Shown piece after piece: positions 6,851 through 46,965 of a stretch of 64,000 nucleotides of DNA. Position 1 is the stretch's first letter. The number at the start of each line of letters is the position of its first letter. The position numbers were made by a program, and so were the translations under genes. The notes beneath the pieces are model-generated. The model was given only the letters and a program-made list of their open reading frames with translations. It was not told the origin of the DNA and did no database searches. Source of the stretch: Notolepis coatsorum (lineage: Eukaryota > Chordata > Actinopteri > Aulopiformes > Paralepididae); assembly GCA_963971535.1 (NCBI GenBank), contig OZ020593.1, positions 35,188,576-35,252,575 on the forward strand. The letters run 5' to 3'.

Positions 6851-7099
6851 AAATAAACATCTGACTTAAACCCAGTAACACACAAGACCCTCTTCTTGGA
6901 CCAAGTAGGTTTCGTCGATAATCCAATGTACAGTTACCCCCACCCGCCTACCCATCCCCCCCACCCCACCACTTCCAATGTACAGTCCCCCACCCCACCT
7001 ACCCAACCCCCCCCCCCCTCCAATGTACAGTTTCTACATCAAATGTATATACTCTTTTTTATTTGTTTTACTCTTTTTGTATCACAAACAGTACTGTAT

Positions 7100-7325
7100 T
7101 TGTAGATCTGGTATGTCATAAATGTATAGATGTAGCAGTACTGTCTATCTGTATGTCATGTATGTCATATATGTTATGATGAATTGAAAATGGGGGACCC
7201 TGATGTAAACAAGATGAAAGTCTTTCTCTGGTCTCCATCCCTTTAACAATTGTGTGTATTGAGCTGTACTGTATTGTACCCATTCTGCAATCTGTTAATA
7301 CAATTTTCAATCAATCAATCAATCA
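7100..7325 (+). repeat. LINE/SINE 3' tail repeat, copy A
   Basis: A 3' segment containing GGGGGACCCTGATGTAAACA, then TTAACAATTG, ATTGAGCTGTACTG and CCCATTCTGCAATCTGTTAA, and ending in (CAAT)n. The family lacks coding here and seems to be the 3' end of a retroposon. Two short copies form the gaps in the Myb-like gene. Confidence 0.8.
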
Positions 7326-7917
7326 AGACCCGCGTCGCGGGCACTGCATTCCATTCTCAGAATGGATTTGAGAGAGATGTGTCATCCAGTTTGACTTGGA
7401 GCACGCACTGTACTATGCGCACTGCCAGTCATCAGGCTATATATGCGGAGATATTCAGACTAGATCTATTTGCAGAGCCAGATGAGTGGCAACCTGTGCG
7501 ATTGGCTCTTGACAACGCACAGTCATTGACAAAGCCTACAGTACTTTGCTGGAACGATTAATTTTGCACGTACTGTATACAGTACGTGTGTATGCGCGCA
7601 CTGCGGGCGGTGGCCATAAGCGTGCAACTAGCCAACTACTATTATATTACTATATTAATACAGTATATTCCACTATATAGCTATAGGTGCTGTATGATGA
7701 CAATACATTTGATTCCTATATAATTTTGATCCATCGCAAAGCGCTCCAGTGCTTGAATATAGCCGGGGGATCCGATGCGGACCCACGGCTCTCTCGTATT
7801 ATAATGAGCCCGCCAGGTGTGTCTCTGTATGCAAATGACTTGGGCGAGAACCCGCATCCAGTTTAGAATGAGTGGGATTCACCATTCAAAAAACCTGGGT
7901 AAAAACAGATTTGGACT
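7326..7917. other. No recognised feature
   Basis: No frame longer than about 100 codons, no recognisable domain and no terminal repeats. The sequence between the tail repeat and the next TTAA element is unassigned. Confidence 0.4.
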
Positions 7918-8817: not shown

Positions 8818-9235
8818 GTGGGGGGGGGGGGGGGGGGGGGGTGTCGCCGCCGCCAGATGATTTCCAATTTTTTTTTTTTATGCAGTCAGGTCACTGAACT
8901 TAGAAGCAGGCCAGGCCAGTGGGTCTCATTCCTGAAGAATTTCCAAAGAATTATTTTGGAAGACTTATCTTGGAACCGACTGAGACAGAATCAATGGGTC
9001 TCATTCCCGAAAATCTTTCAAAGATATATTCTGGAAGACTTATCTTGGAACCACTGAGACATAATCTATGACAAGTACACTCTGAGTCCTGAACGTGCTG
9101 GCAATATGTCTTAAGTGGCTGAAACGGTCGCAGAAATGATATGATCTGATATCTGCTTGGAGAATGGCATTCTGTCGTAAACTCCAAAGCGCGTTCCCGT
9201 TCAGGTCATATGCATACAAACCACGCCCCCGACAG

Positions 9236-9280: not shown

Positions 9281-10796
9281 ATGTCAAAGCAACGCTCTGA
9301 CACGGTAGGAAGTGGAGGCGCACCTGCCTCTAAGCAACGGCGTAAGAATTTCACCAATGCTGAAATGGAGGTGGGGAACCCTTGCAAACAAGACAAACGT
9401 ATTCCTCTGGTCTGCATCCCCTTAACAATTGTGGGTATTGAGCTGTACTGTATTGTAAATTCTGCAATCTGTTAATAAAGTTTCCATTCATTAATTCAGG
9501 TACTGATATCGGGAGTGGAGAATTATAAGGGGGTTATCTTCAGTAGCGTCAGCTCCGGTTACAGGGGCACCCACAAACGGGAGGTATGTATTGTATGTAT
9601 TGAGCTGTACTGTACTGTACCCATTCTGCAATCTGTTAATAAACCTTTCAATCAATCAATCAGGCATGGGCCCAAATCACCGGAGAGGTGAACGCTGTAT
9701 CCGGCGAGGGGCGCACAGCCACCGAGGTGAAAAAAAAATGGGTCGACACAAAGTCGGCCTGCAAGCACCGGATCGCCAAGCACACGAGAGACATGCTGGC
9801 ACCTGGTGGAGGACCAGCAGGCCCGGCCCTGTCCGACCTGGACCTGCGTGTCCAGGCCATTATAGGCACCACAGCGATCGCGGGTGTAGACGGTGCGGAC
9901 AGGAACGAGACGACGCACGGGGCTGGGCACCGTCTCCTGTTCTCAGCAGCCAGCATGTCTCCCGTCCCCGAAGGATCCGATACCGACACAGACGGTAAGC
10001 GTCCCTCCCACAACAGGTGCATCCCAATAAATTAGAACAGGGAATATATTGATTGCCTCCATGCACAGTAAATCGTGCAGTGTCAAATGAAGGGAGTGTT
10101 AACACTTTACTCTATTTAGAGTTGATTTAACATTAATTGTAGTTGGGAACAAATACGCAAGATGTACTGTGTGCCGCGCCGCATGGATTCATGCAAATCA
10201 AGTATTGAGATCCACCTGTAATATCTAATTGAAACATGCATGTGCAATCAGTGCGTCAAGCATTGCATGATCGCAACCCCCACGTCAATCACAATTAATC
10301 ACCCCAATTCATTCCCAGATGCAACTGACTCAGAGCCCCCCCCGGAGCTGTCCCTCCCGTCCACCAGTGCTGGCCCGTCCACCAGTGCTGGCCCGTCCAA
10401 CAGTGCCCGTCCCCCAGGGGTGCCAGGGGTGCACCCAGCCATGGAGGTCACATGGGCGAGGCGATGCTGGTGGAGCAGGAGCGGCAAAACAGCGTCCTGG
10501 AGCGGCTCGCTGCCGGCCAGGAGTGGGCCGCTGCCGGCCAGGACCGGACCGCTGCCAGCCTGGAGCAGATCGCTGCCAGCCTGGAGCGGGTCACTGCCAG
10601 TCTGGAGCGGGCCACCGCCAGCCAGGACAGAACCGCTGCCAGCCTGGAGCGGGTCGCTGCCAGCCAGGAGCAGACCGCTGCCAGCCTGGAGCGGGCCGCT
10701 TCCAGCCTGGAGCGCCTTGCCATCATCAGCGAGTGGGTCGCTACCACAATGGAGCGGGGTTTGGCAGCGCCAGACCAACAATTGCCCCCACAATAA
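9281..10796 (+). CDS. Myb/SANT-like DNA-binding protein of a Harbinger element (four exons, one frameshift)
   Basis: PIF/Harbinger elements encode a Myb/SANT-like (NAIF1-like) DNA-binding partner of the nuclease. The proposed exons are 9281-9370, 9500-9583, 9664-9994 and 10319-10796. Exon 1 encodes the start with RRKNFTNAEME; exon 2 continues VLISGVEN; exon 3 has NAVSGEGRTATEVKKKW, the third helix of the Myb/SANT-like domain. All gaps have GT-AG ends, and the first two are phase 0. Exon 4 is rich in LER and AAS repeats (roughly 11-residue periods), predicted helical or coiled coil, ending at TAA 10796. A +1/-1 shift between about 10441 and 10460 separates the start of exon 4 from the LVEQERQ frame, so this copy may be inactive. 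The first two gaps are filled by retroposon tail sequence. It converges on the HARBI1-type gene. Confidence 0.72.
9371..9499 (+). repeat. Retroposon tail forming intron 1 of the Myb-like gene
   Basis: The whole 129-bp gap matches the tail repeat at 7100-7325 and 14870-15063. It starts GTGGGGAACCC and ends TTAATTCAG. The exon edges read GGAG|GTGGGG and TTCAG|GTACTG. AGGT is present at both junctions, consistent with a 4-bp target duplication that supplies both splice sites. Removing it gives the frame AEME-VLIS without change. Confidence 0.75.
9584..9663 (+). repeat. Retroposon tail forming intron 2 of the Myb-like gene
   Basis: This 80-bp gap is a shorter copy of the same tail repeat: it starts GTATGTATTG, includes ATTGAGCTGTACTG and CCCATTCTGCAATCTG, and ends CAATCAATCAG. 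AGG flanks both junctions. Its removal joins THKRE to AWAQITGE in frame. The donor GAG|GTATGT is close to consensus. Confidence 0.75.
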
Positions 10797-10859: not shown

Positions 10860-11345
10860 CGGCTACGTGGCGTAGTGGGCAAGGCGCTCGCCACGAATGA
10901 CAGAGACGCTGGGCTTGCCTGTTCGAGCCCAGCGCTCCACATTGCTTTCAGTTTAGCTGGTCGTTCATACTAATACACATTGGCCGTATTAGGGGGTGGG
11001 AAACTGATGGGTGGGGATCGGGCGTTGTGGACAGCGACTCCTACAGGTCGGTTGGTGCGCCTGCGCAGTAGAATCAGGAAGTGTCTGGGGCAGCGTGAGC
11101 CTCCCACGCGTTACTCCTCGACACTGAGAGATCGAGCTGCGCAGGTGAAAAGATGCGACTGCTGTTACCTCAAGTACCGGAGGGGACTTGTGCTATGTAT
11201 GACTTAGTCCACATTGCAGCCGGCTTGTGGGAGGCAAGAAACAGCGTTCGTGACAGGGGAGGGTTGAATTGGATCATACGAAATTGGGATGGGAGAAAAT
11301 ATAGAAAATGGGAGAAAAAGTGGATAAAAAAGTTATTGGTATACA
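10860..11345 (+). mobile_element. SINE of the GTCGTTCA family, near full-length
   Basis: The tRNA-like head has GTGGCGTAGTGGGCAAGGCG and a B-box-like TGTTCGAGCCC. The body carries GGTCGTTCATACTAATACA and GGACAGCGACTCCTACAGG. It ends A-rich after GGGATGGGAGAAAATATAG. It sits between the 3' ends of the two convergent Harbinger genes, so it inserted after the element formed. Confidence 0.8.
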
Positions 11346-11984: not shown

Positions 11985-13373
11985 TCAGACTAAGACAGCA
12001 CGCCTATTATCCGGGCCCATTAATGGGTCAGGATGCATGTCCTGGTCAGGTGGTTGTTGAGGTGGCTGGAGGGGTAGTGGGACACCATGCTTCTCCGCAA
12101 TGTTGTGCAGGACGCAGCAGGCCATGATAATCGTACACACCTGGAAAGAATGAATAAGCCACAATAAATGACATGCAACATATGATTGTATTGGGCTGAG
12201 GTGGGCACTCATACATGTTTTAACACGGCACGGCCAAAACAATTTATCAGCTGTTGCCTTCATCCACACCTTATCCGGCTTGTACAGCAGCTTGCCACCT
12301 GCTGCGTCCAAACACATCCAGCGTCTCTTTATTGACCCAATTGTGCGCTCCACGGTGGACCGGGTGCGCGCATGGCGCTCGTTATACGCCGCCTCCTGCG
12401 CGGCGTGAGGGTTGGCGACTGGGGTCATCAGCCATGGGGCCAGTGCATATCCACGGTCTCCTAATAAAACAAGTCATTAGAGGAATAGAAGCCTATACTG
12501 GTGCAAGAACAATTCTATACTCACAGATACTTACCAATTAGCCATGCGTCTCTTGCGTCTCCTTGTTCGAGGAGCATACCCACTTCGCTGTTCTGGAGGA
12601 TGTACGAGTCGTGCGCACCTCCTGGGAAACGGGCGACGACGTTCAACAGCTGGTTGTTGGCGTCGCAGATGACCTAATAATAAATAATAATTATAAATTC
12701 TATTTGAAGAGAGAAGCAAAAGAAATGATAGATATAGTAACACAGGAAAAAAGAAAAAACAAGTAAGATGAGAAAAGGAAGCAAGGTGCTGTCCAATTGG
12801 ATGAAGTGGTAACAAGAGAGTAAACAAAAAATAGAAACATACCTGTACATTGATAGAATGGTACTGCTTCCAATTAAGGTATGGGAATGGGTCTGGGAAA
12901 GGTGCCAGGATGCGCACGTGGGTGCAGTCAATAGCGCCGATGATGTTTGGCAGCCCAGCGATGGCATGGAATGCCGTCTTCACTGGGATCTGCTCTTGGG
13001 CGGAAAAGGGGAATCTGATGTACTGTGTGGTCAACTCCACGATGCCAGCCAAGACCCGTGGGATGCAGCGGCTGATGGAGGTCTGGGATATGCCCACCCT
13101 GTCTCCTAGCTCCCTCTGGAATGTTCCAGTTGCTAGGAAGCCCAAGGTGGACAGTACCTAGACGTGCGGTGGCACAGGGTTGGAGCGTCTGGTCTGGCTC
13201 CTCAGTGCTGGCTCCAGCGTCTCGGACAGCTCCATTAGCACAGGTCTTGGCAGCCTGAAGCGTCCCAGCAGGTACGCGTCACTCTCGGCGAAGAGATCAG
13301 CGTGGTCCCTGTACTGGCGCTCCCTATTCATTGCGCGTTCGTATCGAGCATAATTATGCTGGATGTTACCCAT
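11985..13373 (-). pseudogene. HARBI1-type nuclease (PIF/Harbinger transposase), four exons, one nonsense codon
   Basis: This encodes the DDE nuclease that cuts and joins Harbinger DNA in the nucleus. Exons on the minus strand are 13373-12843, 12673-12535, 12460-12270 and 12140-11985, giving about 338 codons, close to the usual 350. All introns are GT-AG. The series is ERAMNRERQYRDHADLFAES near the start, LGFLATGTFQRELGDRVGIS (helix-turn-helix-like), NIIGAIDCTHVRI (first catalytic Asp), VICDANNQLLNVVARFPGG then AHDS (second Asp), and ERTIGSIKRRW near the third acidic position. I start at ATG 13373, ahead of the conserved region; the frame is open further up but without an ATG in a better place. 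One in-frame TAG (13160-13158) falls between PPHV and VLSTLG, where a Gln is usual. Otherwise the frame is intact, so loss is recent. Confidence 0.82.
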
Positions 13374-14639
13374 AATTGTGTGTGTAAGCCTTGGGTGCAG
13401 AGTTGACCATTTAAGCATGGCACGATTAATCACTGTTAATTGGATGCCAGGGTTCAATGTACATGATTGCTGTTCAAGTGCACCTGCAAGGTCAGGTTTA
13501 TTTGTCACACGCAACATCGTACCGGTAAGATGAGCAGTGGAATGTTTATCCACTGGCTCTTATAATGTATACAATAAGCAAATGTCCCAAACTATAAATG
13601 AGAACAACAATAAAATTATAACAGAATTATGTGGCTGATGTATTTATTTATTCCGAGTAATTTGCAGTGTGTGTAGTGCTATTATTTATTTTTCCGACAT
13701 CAAATAACGTAATTTCTTATCATACAAATATTGTCATATTTATTTTAATTATGATTAAGTAATTAATTCCAATGAGGCCTGTAGCGTTAAGGTGAAGGAA
13801 TCACTATGAGAACACTGTCTGTCAAGTTATAATAAAATTTAAATTAGTCAATCAATCATGAGATTTGATCATGGGCTGAGAGCATATTTAAGTGTGCTCC
13901 TCAGCTCTCTTAAATCTGCTCTCAGCCACGATCAAATAAGATTTCAGGAAAATTTGGGGACTCCCACTCCCACCCCTAATATATCTTAAATGGGCCGAAA
14001 TCTGGCTAAGATGAAATATTTTGTTGTAACTTCGTTCGAGAATGAGACCCAATGACAAGTTCACTCTGAGTCCTGAACGTGCTGGTAATATGGCTTAAGT
14101 GGCTGAAACGGTCGCACAAATTATATGATCTGATATCTGCTTGGAGAATGGCATTCTGTCTTAAACTCGAAACGCGCATTCCCGTTCAGGTCATTTGCAT
14201 ACAAAACACCGCCTCCAGAGCTCCTTATAAGGCAACTAGTGACGCAGCTGTGTGAAAATGGAATGGCGGAAGTGCTTTGCGAGTCTTGCGAGCCATCAAA
14301 ACTAGATTCGATTAATGTATTGGCATCATATACAGCTCGTGGTACACCTGCCGCAGCGCACACGCACACACACACACGCAGTACTGTATATGAATGAAAT
14401 ATAATATATATAGCCTACGGCGGGCGTAATGAATGAACGCAGTATGGCTTATTATTCCATAATTAAGCCTATACTGTTCATTCGTAGGCGCACACAAGAC
14501 TTGTTATGGAATATTAATGCAGTCTATTTCCACCGATTAGCTTTAGTTCTTATTTATTTATCCACTGTCATTTCAGTGTTGGTGTATAGGCTATATAGTG
14601 TATTTCAATATAAGTTTAATTGATTAATGATATATTCGA

Positions 14640-15063
14640 AGGAATGCAGGTTTATAGCTATATCAACCCCCTCCAATGTACAGTAAATGACCAAGTATGG
14701 TTTTGTCAATATTCCAATGTACAGTTTTGCTTGTACAGTGTAAGTCTATCCCCCACCTACCCCTCCTACCCAACCTCCTCCAACAGTTTATACGTCAAAT
14801 GTACTCTCTTTTCTGGACTCTTTGTATCACAAACAGTAGGCCTACTGTATTTGCAAATCTGGTATGTCATAAATGTATAGATGTAGCAGTACTGTCTATC
14901 TGTGTCGTGTGTGTCATATATGTTATGATGAATTGAAAATGGGGGACCCTGATGTAAACAAGACGAAAGTCTTTCTCTGGTCTGCCCTTAACAATTGTAT
15001 GTAATTGATCTGTACTGTACCCATTCTGCAATCTGTTAATAAAGTTTTCAATCAATCAATCAA
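14640..15063 (+). repeat. LINE/SINE 3' tail repeat, copy D
   Basis: This is a longer copy of the tail repeat: CCAATGTACAG phrases, the GGGGGACCCTGATGTAAACA block, then TTAACAATTGTATG, CCCATTCTGCAATCTGTTAA and (CAAT)n. It resembles 6900-7325 through its whole length, including the C-rich spacer. Confidence 0.8.
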
Positions 15064-16219: not shown

Positions 16220-16638
16220 TTAAAGTAATTATACATTTGTCCAAAATAGCTGGTTCAGATATGGTTAAGCAGCTGCCCTGTGATCAGATGAATCCATATT
16301 ATTTATTTTTCCGACATCAAATGCGTAATTTCTTATCGTACAAATATTGTCATATTTATTTTAATTATGATTAAGTAATTAATTCCAAGGAGGCCTGTAG
16401 CGTTGACATGAAGGAATCACTATGAGAACACAGTCTGTCAAGTTAATAAAATTTTCAATTACTCAATCAATCATAAGACTGCTCCTCAGCACTCTTAAAT
16501 CTGCTCTCAGCCACGATCAAATCTGATCTCAGGAAAATTTGGGGACTCCCGCTCCCAGCCCTAATATGTCTTAAATGGGCAGAAATCTGCCTAAGAGGAA
16601 CATTTTTGTCGTAAATTCGTTCGGGAATGAGACCCAGT

Positions 16639-17230
16639 GTTTCTAGTTGCAGCAGCGCAATAGTTAGATAAGGTGGGGAACAACCAGGAGATCACTGCAA
16701 CTAAAACAAGTTGGAGAACTATCTCTCTCTCTTGCTCACACACAAAAATGTGATTGGTAAGACCCTTACAAAAAACAAAAAATCCATCAAAATCAGTGTT
16801 GCTAATCATTGACACATGCTAGCCTGTAATAATCCCCCCCAGAAAAATCTACTTTGCATTTGATATATTGCAAATACAGTATATGCCATCACACACACTG
16901 GCATTTAAAGGGTTAGAATTATAAAATGAATATGTGGTGTTATGATCAGGGCTGAAGTTGAATAAAAGATTTATGAAAGAAAAAGTGGTATTTCAACATA
17001 TAGTAATATTTTTATGGCGTTTTTGAAGAGGACAATCTAGTCCCTTATGGTAAGAATGAGTATTCTTTTCAATCTGACATTACAAAAAAACTGAATCCAT
17101 CAAAATCAGTGTTGTTGCTAATCATATATGCTAGCCTGTTTTTTAACAATAATTTGTGATGCCATCACAAACACTGCCATTTAAGGATACAAATAAAAAA
17201 AAGTCCTACACCAGAATGCAGGAAATGAAG
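16639..17230. repeat. Decayed element with internal direct repeat
   Basis: A block at about 16765-16915 (ATCCATCAAAATCAGTGTTG, GCTAGCCTG, GATGCCATCACA) recurs at about 17095-17190. Related sequence is at 43785-44035 and 45365-45415. It is probably a relic of one DNA transposon family. No coding is left. Confidence 0.5.
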
Positions 17231-34526: not shown

Positions 34527-35103
34527 AACATTAGCCAGTTGGTAAATTCAATTGATGTCTCGACTTCCCTGTTTGTTGATAACTGTGACACGGCTCTTGC
34601 CTTCCGTAGTAGCGAAGCAAAGATAGTCTCTGCTGCTGAGTGCTGACAGAAGTGGATCAGAGGAAATTATATGAATGAATCGGTTTTGACCGATGCAAAG
34701 ACGCTAACAACAGATGCATCGCGAGTTCAACCTGAATTGTAGCCGCCGCATTTTTCCCACCAATGCACTCGCATCTTGAACGTTTACAGGGCATGTGAGC
34801 GGAGCGGAGTGCTCGAAAAATCCGCTCTTCGCTCTAGATGTCTGGTTCCGCTCCCATCCGCTCATGTTGGCCCGCCCCCCCAAGTCGCTCACCGCTCACC
34901 TTCATTTACGAATCAAGCGCTCCACATCGCTCCACAGCATTTTAATTTTTTTTGGAGCATGATGTAAATTAGCTTGATTTGACCAAACTACAACAGTCTA
35001 CACCCCCTGGGCCCCTTAACAATTGTTTGTATTGAGCCGTATTGTAATTGTACCCATTCTGCAATGTTAAATAACGTTGTTTATCCATTCACTAGCTCTA
35101 CTA

Positions 35104-36626
35104 TAGCCCATGTGCTGCACACAGCAGCATCACACCTGGACAAGAGGCAGGGGAACTATGTGAGAATGCTATTCATCGACTACAGCTCGGCATTCAATAC
35201 CATAGTCCCCTCCATACTCATAGCCAAGCTCAGGGACCTGGGCTTGGGCTATGACCTCTGCCAGTGGGTCTTGGACTTCCTGACTGGCAGACCCCAGGTG
35301 GTGAGAGCAGGCAACTGCACCTCCTCATCCATCACCCTCAACATAGGGGCCCCCCAGGGCTGTGTTCTGAGTCCCCTCCTCTACTCCCTGTACACACACG
35401 ACTGTGTGGCTCAGCGGAGTAGCAATACAATCATCAAATTTGCTGACGACACAGTGGTGGTGGGCCTGATCTCTGCCAACGACGAGAGGGCCTACCTGGA
35501 AGAGGTCAAGGTCCTGGCGGGATGGTGCCAGGAAAACAGCCTCTCCCTGAACGTCAGCAAAACAAAGGAGATGATTGTGGACTTCAGGAGGTCGGGGGTC
35601 AAGGACTACAGCCCCCTCAGCATCGACGGGGCACCGGTTGAGAGAGTCAACAGCTTTAAGTACCTCAGAGCCTACATATCCGAGGACTTGACATGGACCA
35701 CACACATTGACAGTGTTGTGAAGAAGGCACGACAACGCCTCTACTTCCTCAGGCGCCTAAGGAAGTTCCAAGTCAGCCAGAAGATCCTTAAGAACTTCTA
35801 CTCATGTACAATAGAGAGCATCTTGACCGGCAACATCACCTCCTGGTTTGGGAATAGCACTGCACAAGACCGAAGCAGACTACAAAGAGTGACACGTTCA
35901 GCCGAACGCACAATTGGAGGGGGGCTCCCCACCCTCCAGAACATTTACAACAAGCGTTGCAAGGGCAAGGCTAAGAGAATCATTAAAGACTCCAGTCACC
36001 CGAACAACTGCCTCTTTGAACTGCTGCGGTCAGGCAAGCGATACCGGAGTCTCAAGGCGAGCACAGAAAGACTCAGAAGAAGGTTCTATCCCCAGGCCAT
36101 CAGGCTGCTAAACGAACAATGAATGAACACTACACAACAACAACCACCAAACGCACATAGCACACACATCCACACGCACACACTCACTTTAAACAAACAC
36201 ACTGTAGCACCCACTCCACACACTTTATAGCACACACCCACTTTAAACAAACACACTGTAGCACCCACTCCCCACACTTTATATTTATGGATGAAGGATT
36301 GCACTACAACTCGTACACCTTACTGTAAATTGTACCTAAAATTGTACCTCATCCCATTTCTGCTTTGCACTAGATAGTACTGTACATTAGTACACTGCAT
36401 AGTATTGTGTATTGTATATTATATGGTAACTCAGAACATTGTACATATGTCTATACCGAACACTGTGACCTCATTTTTCTTCTTCTAAATTCATGCTATA
36501 TTATGTTATTATGTTATTTGATACTATCTTGTCTAGCACAGTCTCTGGAGCGTAACAGTAAGAAGCATTTTGTATGAAAGTATTCTGTACTTCTGTATGA
36601 CAACTATTAAAGAACTTGAACTTGAA
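35104..36626 (+). mobile_element. Rex1/CR1-like LINE, 5'-truncated, young
   Basis: The insertion is bounded by CTACTA on both sides (35098-35103 and 36627-36632). It includes an unbroken polymerase frame, a CA-rich 3' UTR with a roughly 50-bp duplication (36180-36290), and ends with AACTTGAACTTGAA-like repeats. Confidence 0.85.
35107..36122 (+). CDS. Rex1-like reverse transcriptase, C-terminal two thirds
   Basis: Non-LTR reverse transcriptase copies element RNA at a nicked target. The frame is open through the insertion edge; its first LINE-derived residues are [16 protein letters not shown]. The RT motifs are [12 protein letters not shown] (first Asp), [32 protein letters not shown] (catalytic FADD) and [13 protein letters not shown]. 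The thumb and C-terminal region follow, with [19 protein letters not shown] and [16 protein letters not shown], ending ...AIRLLNEQ at TGA 36122. The endonuclease domain and N-terminal fingers are missing, so no start codon belongs to it. With no stop in about 340 codons, this copy is recent. Confidence 0.85.
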
Positions 36627-36705: not shown

Positions 36706-36927
36706 GGAGCATGATGTAAATTAGCTTGATTTGACCAAACTACAACAGTCTACACCCCCTGGGCCCCTTAACAATTGTTTGTATTGAGCCGTATTGTAAT
36801 TGTACCCATTCTGCAATGTTAAATAACATTGTTTATCCATTCACTAGCTCTACTAAGCGATGGTAGCTAGCCTAGCCACAATGCTATGGTCGCTGCCATT
36901 CATGTTAGCATGTAAGCTAACGACAAC
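36706..36927. repeat. Tandem duplicate of hAT interior
   Basis: Second copy of the block GGAGCATGATGTAAATTAGC to AGCTAACGACAAC; about two differences from the copy interrupted by the LINE. Confidence 0.85.
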
Positions 36928-40199: not shown

Positions 40200-41169
40200 T
40201 TAATTAACAATGATAATCTAAAAATAGTAAAACATTGTAGACATCTTTATAAACATCAGAATATTTTCAGAAAAGGTTATTACATTCATGAGTAAATATT
40301 TCATTATTACATTCCTACAGTAGGTATTTCCACTCCATTCAATTTACTTATGTTCAGTGGGCAGTTATTCCAATGATTGATGGCACGATAAACAACCGTC
40401 CTTTTTAAAGCATTTTATTTTGGACGTGGTAACATAATCTGTCCATCATCGGCTGACCTAGTAAAATAAGAATGAACCTGACTGCATCTGACAATTTGTT
40501 TGTATAAGAAAACAGGTGGAGACGAAAAGTCAGTGTTCCTGACAAATGTAACCGTGTTGAAAACCAGCCTATTCTCTACCGTTAACCATGAGAGTTGACG
40601 GTGCATACTGATAGTGTTTGTGTGAGGAATCCTGCACGCAGCCTAACGAGGGGGCGTGCCGTTTTTCACCTTCACGCACCTGTTGGGAGTTTGCGATCAG
40701 CTCGGGAGAGTACTTGTATTGCAGACTCCCCTCCACTCCTTGTCGGTCGTTCTTGTTGCTACCATCAACTGCCGCGTCTCCGGCGTGAGACGTCGTGCCA
40801 GCCTTCACCACCTGTCGCCGTTTGCCTGGAGTGGGACACCGCCTTCGCTCTCTAATACTCTACGGGAGGATTCCAGTGTTCCCACTCCAGACGTCGAGCC
40901 GGCTATTACCCAGCTCCCTCTTCATGATCCCCGTTTCCTTGGAACCCCTGTGTTCTCCTGCCGCGTCTCCGGCGTGAGACGACGTGCCACCCGTCACCAT
41001 CTGTCACCGTTTGCCTGGAGTGGGACACCGCCTTCGCTCTCTAATACTCTACGGGAGGATTCCAGTGTTCCCACTCCAGACGTCAAGCCGGCTACTTCCC
41101 AACTCCCTCTTCGTGGTCCTGGTTCCTGGGGTGAGGCTCGCCATCGCTCCCTATTACTCCCCGGGAGGA

Positions 41170-42996
41170 TGAATGAATGAATGACCTTTATTTATATAGC
41201 ACCCTTCACAGCACGAATGCACAGGGTGCTTTACACTACAGCTTAATATAAAAACACAATAAAACAATCAGAAATAAATGACAACAAACAAACAGCAGTT
41301 AAAAAACAGTGAAACCAGATAGAAAAAGTAGAATAAAAGAATTTGGATAAAATCATGAGTCACTAATTAAAACAAACCTATAGAACAGTGAGGACAAGAA
41401 AAGCCGCCTATGCATGATCAAAAGCCTGCCTGAACAAATGTGTTTTTTAGTTGTTTTTTAAAAGAGTTTTCAGAGGGGGCAGTTCGCAGGTCCAGGGGGA
41501 GAGCGTTCCAGAGCCTTGGTGCTGTCACCTCGAAGGCTCGATCACCCCTTGTTTTTAGCCTGGACCTGGGGATCACCAGGAGGTGCTGATCGGCAGATCT
41601 GAGTGAGCGGGTGTTGGTGTAGGGATGGATGAGTTCTGTGATGTAGATAGGGGCCTGACCGTGAAGTGCTCTGAAAGTGAAAGTGAGGACTTTGAAGTGA
41701 ATTCTATAGTGTACCGGGAGCCAGTGCAGGGATACCAAAATGGGAGTGATGTGACATGATTTTTTTGACCTTGTGAGTAGCCTGGCTGCAGCATTTTGGA
41801 CCATTTGTAGTTTATCTGTGGATGATTTGGTGAGACAGGTGAAAAGTGAGTTGCAGTAGTCAAGCCTAGAGGAAATAAAAGCATGCACGGATAGTTCTAG
41901 TTCAGAGTGAGATATGATGGTGCGCAGTTTTGCAATGTTTCTGAGGTGAAAGAAGCAGGTGCGTGTGAGTGTTTTGACATGTTTGTCTAGGTTCATGGCC
42001 TGGTCAAAGACAACACCCAGGTTTCTCAGGTGGGGACGTATGTTGTCTTTAAGGGACCCCAAGTGAGTGGCCACTCTAGCTGCAGTCTTTTCAGCTGCTA
42101 CGATCAGCACCTCCGTTTTATTTGCATTTAACTGGAGGAAGTTACTCCCCATCCAGCTCTCAATGCCGAGCAGGCACTCCTGGAGAAGGCTGAGTTTCTC
42201 CAAGTTGTTGGGTTTAAAAGAGCAGAGTAGTTGTATGTCGTCTGCGTAGCAGTGATATTTAATGCCGGTGAATTTATTGATGAGGAGGCCTAGGGGAAGC
42301 ATATAAATGGCAAAGAGGAGTGGTCCTAGCACCGATCCCTGTGGTACCCCACATGAGAGGGGGGTGGGGTCAGATTTAAAAGGACCCACAGCCACCGAGA
42401 ACGTTCTCTCCCTCAGATAAGAGGCAAACCAGTTTAGAGCGCTCCCAGAGATGCCCACCCACTCCCTGAGCCTGTCCAAAAGGATGTTGTGGTTGACCGT
42501 GTCAAACGCTGCGCTCAGGTCTAACAGGACCAGAACAGAGCATTCACCAGAGTCAGCAGACATCAGGAGATAATTGGATACTCTGAGAAGGGCAGATTCA
42601 GTGAAGTGGAGTTTGCGGAAGCCAGATTGGAATTTGTCACAGATGTTATTTTGTGACATGTGGGTGGTGAGCTGGTTGGCTACAACCTTTTCTAACACCT
42701 TTGATGCAAAGGGCAGCTTGGAGATGGGTCTGAAATTATTATGGATGGTGGGGTCTAGGTTGGGCTTTTTAAGGAGTGGCTGTACGACTGCCTCCTTAAA
42801 ATAGATTGGGACAGAACCAGAGGCTAGGGATGAGTTTATGATAGTGACTAGACTGGGGCCAACAGAGCAGAAAACTTCCTTAAACATGGATGTAGGAAGG
42901 ATGTCTAGGGGGCTCGAGGAGGTCTTCATGGAGGTGACTAAGATGGTGAGATCATCCAGAGAGACAGGTGAGAAATCGCTCAGGGATGCAAGGATG
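41170..42996 (-). mobile_element. L2-type LINE, 5'-truncated
   Basis: A minus-strand insertion in the solo LTR. The 3' end has GTGCTATATAAATAAAGG and then (ATTC)n at 41170-41195. It differs in sequence and tail from the full-length L2 at 47397-51757, so at least two L2 lineages are present. Confidence 0.82.
41418..42929 (-). CDS. L2-type ORF2, reverse transcriptase part
   Basis: A 503-codon unbroken frame. Order: VVQPLLKKPNLDPTIHNNFR and PISKLPFASKVLEKVVANQL at the RT start, QSGFRKLHFTESALLRVSNY, VLLDLSAAFDTVNHNILLDR (first catalytic Asp), CGVPQGSVLGPLLFAIYMLP, KYHCYADDIQLL (catalytic YADD) and LNANKTEVLIV. C-terminal to RT are FISSRLDYCNSLFTCLT, PILVSLHWLPVHYRIHFKVL and GDRAFEVTAPRLWNALPLDL. 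The endonuclease domain is missing through 5' truncation, so it cannot move itself. The ATG at 42929 is internal to the ancestral frame and probably not a real start. Confidence 0.85.
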   Translation of the reverse strand: MKTSSSPLDILPTSMFKEVFCSVGPSLVTIINSSLASGSVPIYFKEAVVQPLLKKPNLDPTIHNNFRPISKLPFASKVLEKVVANQLTTHMSQNNICDKFQSGFRKLHFTESALLRVSNYLLMSADSGECSVLVLLDLSAAFDTVNHNILLDRLREWVGISGSALNWFASYLRERTFSVAVGPFKSDPTPLSCGVPQGSVLGPLLFAIYMLPLGLLINKFTGIKYHCYADDIQLLCSFKPNNLEKLSLLQECLLGIESWMGSNFLQLNANKTEVLIVAAEKTAARVATHLGSLKDNIRPHLRNLGVVFDQAMNLDKHVKTLTRTCFFHLRNIAKLRTIISHSELELSVHAFISSRLDYCNSLFTCLTKSSTDKLQMVQNAAARLLTRSKKSCHITPILVSLHWLPVHYRIHFKVLTFTFRALHGQAPIYITELIHPYTNTRSLRSADQHLLVIPRSRLKTRGDRAFEVTAPRLWNALPLDLRTAPSENSFKKQLKNTFVQAGF

Positions 42997-43480
42997 GCGT
43001 GTTCTCATCCCGTTCCCCTCGGACCCCCTGTGTGCTGCATTGCCCGTGGGCAGCGTCTGGTCTGGAGGAGGAGGATTCATTGGCAGAGCTGAGCCGCAGA
43101 GCCCTACTCGGTTGTAGGGACGAAGAGGATCCCTGTTACTTTTTCCCAGCCTGTTCGCCCGTTAAAGCCACAGTGCGGCCTTTTTGTGTTCATGGACGTT
43201 TGATGTTTTTACCCCCTTAAAGGCTGAGTGCCGCTTTTTTTGTATTAAATAAATAATGCCCTGTTTTTGGCTAACTCTCATACCTGTCTTGTGTTGTGCT
43301 ATTGGGGTCGGTTTCAAACCATAACAGTTTGTTCTCATGGAACAATGTAAGACTAACCTTGCAACTCTGTTCTGGGCAATTTGCAATTTCTTTAGTTGAC
43401 CTTTAGATACAGAGGACCATACTGGTGCACAATAAACCAGGTGACATAAAAATTTGGATTTCGCCACCTTTGTAGTTTGT

Positions 43481-44447: not shown

Positions 44448-45138
44448 CAGGCCATGTGAGCGGCGCGCGGAGCGGGCGGTTTTGACGTGAGCGAGGAGTG
44501 GGTTTTAAAATGAGTCGGCGCGATGTCCGGAGCGAGAGTTCTCCTCCGCTCCAATCCACTCCAGGCCGCTCACAGTGGTTTAACACTGTATGTAATATAT
44601 ACATGCAGTACAATGCCAAAGCAACAGATGGCGATGTACAAACATGAAGGCCATTTTCAACCAATGAGAAGGGTGAACCTGTGATATCCTGTTCAGGCTT
44701 TGTCACTCACTCCTGTTAGAAAAAGTATCAACGCCATTGTTGTTGTCGTTAGCTTACATGCTAACGTTAATGGCAGCGACCATAGCATTGTGGCTCGGCT
44801 AGCCTATCATCGCTTAATAGAGCTAGTGAATGGATAAACAACGTTATTTAACATTGCAGAATGGGTACAATTACAATGCGGCTCAATACAAACAATTGTT
44901 AAGGGGCCCAGGGGGTGTAGACTGTTGTAATTTGAGCTAATTTACACCATATTCCAAAAAAAAAAATAAAAAAATCTGCCGAGCGATCTGGCGCGGGGAG
45001 CGCTCGATTCAAGGTGAGCGGGGAGCGAGCGGAGAGCGACTTGGGGGCGGGGTCAACATGAGCGATTAGCGGAGTGGACCAAGCTTTAAAGAGCGAAGAG
45101 CGGATTTCTCGGCCGCGCCGATCCGCTCACGTGGCCTG
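44448..45138. mobile_element. Non-autonomous hAT element with perfect 8-bp duplication
   Basis: GCATCAGT flanks both ends (44440-44447 and 45139-45146). The ends are CAGGCCATGTGAGCGG and the complement CCGCTCACGTGGCCTG. GAGCGG sub-repeats cluster near both ends. The interior contains an inverted copy of the tail-repeat segment (44826-44925) that is also inside 34787-37196, so that segment was captured before the family spread. Confidence 0.9.
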
Positions 45139-46784: not shown

Positions 46785-46965
46785 TCATGAATGAATGAAA
46801 ACTTTATTTAACAGATTGCAGAATGGGTACAATACAGTATGGCTCAATACATACAATTGTTAAGGGGATGCAGACCTGAGAAAGACGTTTGTCTTGTTTC
46901 CATCAGGGTCCCCCATTTTCAATTCATATAGACATTTATGACATACACAACATACATGACATTTA
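46785..46965 (-). repeat. LINE/SINE 3' tail repeat, copy H
   Basis: The complement has the GGGGGACCCTGATG block, AGGTCTGCATCCCCTTAACA, CCCATTCTGCAATCTGTTAA and an ATTCATTC tail. It is the same family as the Myb-gene introns. Confidence 0.8.

Follow-up and report, generated by a model that had tools for sequence, protein, structure and literature searches.

Two of the three introns in the Myb-like gene of a Harbinger DNA transposon are very probably the 3′ tails of a retroposon, gained stepwise at AGG(T) sites and then spread with the transposon. We characterized the gene in a 64,000-nucleotide stretch of genomic DNA (hereafter the window; G000:C27:35188576–35252575) and in further copies (loci with L numbers) from the genome searched (3.42 Gb), whose transposon proteins suggest a fish-like vertebrate. 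The Harbinger element in the window carries the Myb-like gene on the plus strand (9281–10796) and a transposase on the minus strand (approximately 11985–13559), that is, the DDE transposase beside a Myb-like gene (PF13359 and PF13873) that identifies PIF/Harbinger elements. The parts of the element are as follows.

9281–9370 (+): exon 1 of the Myb-like gene, with an ATG at 9281 and an open frame ending in AEME; PF13873 spans exons 1–3
9371–9499 (+): intron 1, 129 nt, GT–AG, phase 0; a 5′-truncated retroposon tail (by tail homology), the first gained
9500–9583 (+): exon 2 of the Myb-like gene, 84 nt
9584–9663 (+): intron 2, 80 nt, GT–AG, phase 0; a more strongly truncated retroposon tail, the second gained
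9664–9994 (+): exon 3 of the Myb-like gene
9995–10318 (+): intron 3, phase 1, ordinary and ancestral; its 5′ part is also present in L054 and L055, which are without introns 1 and 2
10319–10796 (+): exon 4, with heptad (21-bp) repeats
11985–13559 (−): Harbinger transposase, with DDE_Tnp_4 in a single exon and one premature stop in the window copy

The original prediction had described 9371–9499 and 9584–9663 as phase 0 gaps that start with GT, end with AG and on excision restore AEME-VLIS and THKRE-AWAQ, and each of these points was confirmed. After removal of the three putative introns, residues 20–97 of the protein match positions 1–78 of the 78 of Myb_DNA-bind_5 (Pfam; E = 3.3e-20). Retention of intron 1 would stop translation after 64 residues, and retention of intron 2 would shift the frame and end the protein after 93 residues; introns 1 and 2 thus combine GT–AG ends with restoration of a conserved reading frame on removal, as expected of spliceosomal introns. 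In exon 4 of the window copy, the frame is shifted between the first part and the coiled-coil part. Of 1309 candidate protein homologues elsewhere, sought for an outside comparison of introns, not one reached E ≤ 0.001. Repeats at 7799–7855 and 14174–14230 (70% complementary) lie around the element. Two pairs of direct copies were also observed (89–94% identity for both): the promoter block at 9068–9188 recurs at 14052–14172, and a neighbouring block at 13708–14054 and 16324–16639 is likewise duplicated, the copies being located on the far side of the element. The segment at 10860–10945 resembles a tRNA-type Pol III promoter, and ARAGORN and Rfam returned no match for it.

Introns 1 and 2 align to the 3′ tail of a repeat (BLAST and alignment) that occurs in the window at about the following positions; within the second and third copies the aligned parts are 14825–15063 and 46961–46788 (minus strand).

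7080–7325 (+): longer copy of the tail family, with an (ATCA)n end
14640–15063 (+): longer copy of the tail family
46785–46965 (−): copy with an (ATTC)n end, the closest to intron 1 within the window

The claim that the gaps consist entirely of this tail holds for intron 1, which is retroposon tail over its length, and has to be narrowed for intron 2, in which only positions 7–79 of 80 are retroposon. This part of intron 2 is 100% identical to tails on contigs C30 and C1; the first six bases, GTATGT, are absent from both of these source copies as read. The truncated tail in intron 2 therefore starts at ATTG, and the preceding GTATGT is not retroposon sequence. Intron-2 positions 7–79 or 7–80 were matched at 100% without the first six bases at 7 of the 40 scored places, and the two of these that were read both run on upstream (5′) into the retroposon. 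All tail copies end in an AATAAA-like motif followed by (ATCA)n or (ATTC)n, and their 5′ starting points differ; a common 3′ end with a simple-repeat tail and variable 5′ truncation is the anatomy of a non-LTR-type retroposon. At several positions the intron-1 sequences of L049 and L051 are nearer to the repeat than that of the window. The longer tail gave 1799 first-look candidates genome-wide, and the 40 of these that were scored each match at 96% or higher; an exact tail pattern was matched 0 times in viral and 0 times in prokaryote contigs. Rfam and tRNA scans of the window gave 0 matches and hence no tRNA-derived head, folding of the longest tail copy gave no special RNA structure (z = −0.08) and no coding region was found in the tail copies.

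A LINE in the window (41150–43004, minus strand; RVT_1, E = 5.9e-35; 3′ end AATAAAGGTCATTCATTCATTCATC) has an AATAAA + (ATTC)n tail similar to that of the intron-making repeat, and on this resemblance only is a candidate source of its reverse transcriptase. A related tail is present at 35012–35094, 36764–36846 and 44824–44906, each time within a larger shared repeat, and one of the three adjoins a LINE reverse-transcriptase frame (34983–36119).

Short duplications of the target flank both inserts, as proposed originally (AGGT doubled at the first, AGG at the second).

9369–9372 (+): AGGT, 5′ copy; exon-1 matches end at query position 106 and exon-2 matches start at 103, a 4-nt overlap
9498–9501 (+): AGGT, 3′ copy, from the same 4-nt overlap of exon-1 and exon-2 matches
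9582–9588 (+): AGG, 5′ copy, possibly of a 7-bp AGG(C/T)ATG duplication; exon-2 matches reach query position 193 with a mismatch and exon-3 matches start at 187
9662–9668 (+): AGGCATG, 3′ copy, from joined-exon matches and reading of the DNA

Empty sites contain one AGGT or AGG (AGGT is single in the empty L047), whereas filled sites have two, flanking the insert. The target-site duplication is thus AGGT at intron 1 and, at intron 2, AGG or an imperfect 7 bp (left copy AGGTATG, right copy AGGCATG), which leaves two readings for intron 2: a duplicated AGG accompanied by five additional bases, or 7 bp in which a single change created the GT. A doubled AGG is expected at any intron positioned at AG|G, and at intron 2 it is weak evidence when taken alone. 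The ancestral GC donor for intron 2 that an AGG(C/T)ATG duplication suggests had 0 matches genome-wide.

Myb-like copies without the insertions, for which the original prediction had proposed a search, were found. Among 40 scored places matched by a 317-nt query of joined exons, 8 are unbroken across the intron-2 site and 32 break there. Reading of the DNA identified three copies without either intron (L047, L052 and L056) and four with intron 1 and without intron 2 (L048, L049, L051 and L053; L051 also has a 9-nt gap there), and no copy read has an intron of unrelated sequence at either position. Among the matches listed in a protein search, the domain is unbroken across both sites at C27:52998347 (74%), C27:50009906 (63%), C1:306651700 (59%), C23:132208781 (58%), C1:306642996 (53%) and many places at about 40%. 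The copies without introns 1 and 2 join the exons exactly, and L054 and L055, which adjoin L047 and L052, contain the 5′ part of intron 3, indicating that these two copies do not derive from spliced mRNA and are not retrocopies. Exact searches of the whole genome found 44 filled intron-2 donor-side junctions (window included) and 17 empty ones, with 0 matches to reversed-pattern controls. A tree built from exon 2 plus the initial portion of exon 3 (23 copies: 16 with both introns, 4 with intron 1 only and 3 with none; rooted by us on L056) recovered the both-introns clade with a support of 92, this clade plus two intron-1-only copies with 86 and all intron-1 carriers with 97. L038 and L042 were left out of the tree, and L050, which has no homology upstream of exon 2, was dropped before the counts. 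The order of gain is none, then intron 1, then both; the introns are absent in the outgroup copies and the insertions are polarized. The empty-site copies, the intron-1-only copies and this order bear out the proposal that insertion of retroposon tails at AGG(T), a proto-splice site, gave rise to new introns.

The inserts spread after they were gained. Each of the 40 intron-1 matches that were scored spans the whole intron, at 97–100%. We fetched 38 loci besides the window, choosing them by intron-1 similarity, so intron-1 divergence in this set is biased low. Intron 2 is present in 21 of the 38, L038 and L042 have an empty intron-2 site, and in L016 intron 2 is displaced by other sequence (alignment). 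The introns therefore arose in elements that continued to move, and the many intron copies are the product of Harbinger amplification. At least 14 of the 38 loci (L010, L011, L017–L022, L027, L029–L031, L033 and L035) keep intron 1 and have lost the sequence after exon 2, exon 3 included, through internal deletion, some of them retaining the transposase; carriers with an incomplete Myb-like gene indicate that part of the spread was in trans.

These deleted derivatives favour a reading in which the inserts were gained and inherited but not usefully spliced: the Myb-like gene would have been non-functional from the first insertion onwards, with intact elements moving its copies in trans. The broken window copy (exon 4 frame shift, transposase stop) fits the same reading, which we nevertheless consider improbable, given how exons 2 and 3 have evolved. 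In the 15 full copies with both introns, which form four subfamilies (W, A, B and D), these exons contain no in-frame stop (15/15; three copies have gaps of 29, 1 and 1 nt), and the exon tree dates the divergence of the subfamilies after the gain of intron 2. Values of pN/pS are 0.20–0.40 between and 0.24–1.02 within subfamilies, compared with neutral 2.5% bounds, simulated with 24 changes, of 0.44, 0.34 and 0.30 for CpG factors of 1, 6 and 12. Three comparisons lie below all of these bounds (W–A, 0.23; A–B, 0.26; A–D, 0.20); the other three (W–B, W–D and B–D, 0.39–0.40) do so for the first bound alone, when CpG hypermutability is left out of the model. Changes fixed on the three internal splits are 13 synonymous and 9 nonsynonymous (P = 0.004 against an expectation of 30% synonymous and 0.018 against 35%); the A branch (8:4, P = 0.0095) is alone significant, the others being 2:2 and 3:3. 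L009 was left out of the fixed-change test owing to its 29-nt gap, and L045 was left out of the CpG table. Exon evolution after both gains was thus biased towards synonymous change.

Since the exons diverged after both gains according to the tree, and since retention would truncate the domain, splicing is the simplest reading, and introns 1 and 2 are probably spliced. GT–AG is kept in 37 of 38 copies for intron 1 and in 18 of 21 for intron 2, the miss in L015 being an alignment gap. Scored with a consensus matrix, the donors rank in the top 1.4% of GTs in the window; for the acceptors the ranks among AGs are the top 2.3% and the top 6.5%, and both kinds of site are similar to those of intron 3. 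The main weakness of the case for splicing is the low divergence of the introns relative to synonymous sites, which simple shared history does not predict: between subfamilies, introns 1–3 differ by approximately 1–3% in aligned positions where kept, as against 7–23% at synonymous sites of exons 2–3. Exon histories may accordingly differ from intron histories, a point in favour of a gene that died with the first insertion.

Different parts of the element have diverged to different degrees, in a mosaic, the introns differing less than the synonymous exon sites (window 9371–10318, L009–L046), and that of the promoter block is 9–12% for L009, L012, L028, L038, L042 and L046. CpG decay was rejected as the sole cause of the difference between exons and introns, given fixed non-CpG changes at 8 of 343 exon and 5 of 468 intron sites (exons 2–3 and introns 1–3, W versus A). 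Recombination between subfamilies could be guessed to lie behind the mosaic.

The original prediction had left room for a dead gene hit twice by chance, with coincidental GT–AG ends, and had argued that two cases in one gene make chance less likely. Retroposon tails are indeed common, as the number of first-look candidates for the longer tail shows. When insertions were simulated on the sense strand of the Myb-like gene, those exactly undone by a GT–AG splice amounted to 1 in 656 without target duplication, 1 in 31 with duplications of 3–4 bp and 1 in 13 with 5–15 bp, so a single exact case is unremarkable if duplications are long. Under a looser test (some GT–AG within 15 nt of the edges and an open frame), 59–76% of simulated insertions passed, and only exactness counts. 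What makes coincidence so remote as to be negligible is that dozens of dispersed copies have inserts at identical positions and in nested order: both the intron-1-only copies and the spread of the two inserts contradict it, and the many copies that share the inserts kept diverging with synonymous-biased exon changes. It is the empty-site copies and the tree, not the simulation, that carry the case for intron gain. Retroposons do land in introns, and older introns at both places could in principle have been overwritten by such insertions; this is hardly credible, as the intron sequence that is not retroposon amounts to about 7 nt at most, and the intron-less copies join their exons exactly and yet keep intron 3. 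We accordingly retain stepwise gain of retroposon tails as the preferred reading.

The retroposon does not seem to seek AGG. The search for other tail copies in the DNA retrieved for the analysis yielded 34 rows, from which four Harbinger intron-2 rows were removed; the remaining 30 were grouped by eye into 21 events, and in 0 of the 21 does AGG directly follow the tail insertion. No preference for proto-splice targets is thus visible in these events, and the landing place together with selection on a working gene, rather than a specialized introner or a site preference, explains both AGG cases. L009 provides a natural control: around 3635 a copy of the tail family interrupts a transposase exon, lacks an AG at the 3′ edge and is an ordinary non-intron insertion. 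By the definition of the introner survey, introns of a family (at least four) resemble one another over their whole length and occupy several independent positions in genes; here there are two positions in one gene. The suggestion of an introner-like family is thus upheld in that two introns arose de novo from tails, and not in the strict sense of an introner, a family producing introns in many genes. On a broader view, which we regard as doubtful, the tail would bring a complete acceptor with it (UUAAU resembling a branch point, pyrimidines and the AUCA end), and any 5′-truncated copy landing in sense orientation at AGG(T) would become an intron, whatever the gene; the repeat would then be an unspecialized, genome-wide retroposon-based introner, with transposon genes the first place where it has been seen.

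The gains most probably proceeded as follows. A retroposon was copied from RNA, presumably by target-primed reverse transcription and often with loss of its 5′ end. Its 3′ tail entered the Myb-like gene, then with a single intron, of an active Harbinger DNA transposon on two occasions, each time in sense orientation and at AGG(T). Through the short target duplication the left edge would read AG|GT and the right edge AG|G, the remainder of each intron coming from the tail: UUAAU, which resembles a branch point, then a stretch rich in pyrimidines and, leading into AG, (AUCA)n or (AUUC)n. The tail does supply TTAAT approximately 25 nt before the AG, as well as a stretch fairly rich in pyrimidines, and judging from its sequence and position TTAAT may serve as the branch point. 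The first insert became intron 1 and a later one intron 2, and Harbinger continued to transpose with its inserts, such that copies now bear one or both.

The origin of new introns is a long-standing question; gains in vertebrates are rare and their sources are mostly erased. The rice catalase insert of Iwamoto is reportedly SINE-like. In the portions of the literature compared here, transposon insertion at AGGT is a proposed route of intron gain with evidence graded as indirect, and cases are listed from Oryza, Drosophila, Oikopleura and Zea, with rice catalase (Iwamoto 1998) cited as a transposon insertion (PMC3443670). As in those cases, a duplicated AGGT gives donor and acceptor and leaves the coding sequence unchanged; the Harbinger case differs in that one genome contains two successive steps, sites with and without the inserts, and source copies that are identical. 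Introns 3 and 5 of notothenioid slc26a2 are likewise new introns of transposon-like sequence, intron 3 having GT–AG in direct and inverted repeats, but they involve NTE-1, which has terminal inverted repeats (DNA-transposon-like), in a host gene (PMC12357937), whereas the Harbinger introns are retroposon tails in a transposon gene. In the sections of the 2022 survey considered here, introners form families whose similar introns recur at several loci and mostly bear DNA-transposon signatures; no gain pattern in vertebrates is reported (PMC9860276). Both there and here mobile DNA makes spliceable insertions with splice sites partly from target duplication, but the Harbinger case concerns one gene and an unspecialized repeat with variable 5′ truncation. 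Novel introns in GPCR and serpin genes of ray-finned fish were also gained at proto-splice sites, and one table row gives a NonLTR/RTE stretch inside a new intron (PMC3151243 and PMC2746811); unlike the Harbinger case, the parts of these two studies compared report no repeats in the new serpin introns and, in neither, a whole intron that is a retroposon tail. Teleost PIF/Harbinger elements share the transposase plus Myb-like gene, but introns of the latter are not among the topics covered in the corresponding part of that source (PMC9179366). We found no report in the open-licence literature of a vertebrate transposon gene in which an intron consists of a retroposon tail. Insertion at AGGT is thus known as a proposal; new are a clean, polarized two-step case, a retroposon tail as the donor and a transposon's own gene as the recipient.

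The source, the empty site, both successive steps and their outcome are all present in one genome, with the repeat source of intron 2 still identical, and the multicopy nature of the recipient gene allows every step to be re-tested many times. No specialized intron-making element is needed, an ordinary retroposon tail being enough, and one transposon can pass introns to another, which then multiplies them.
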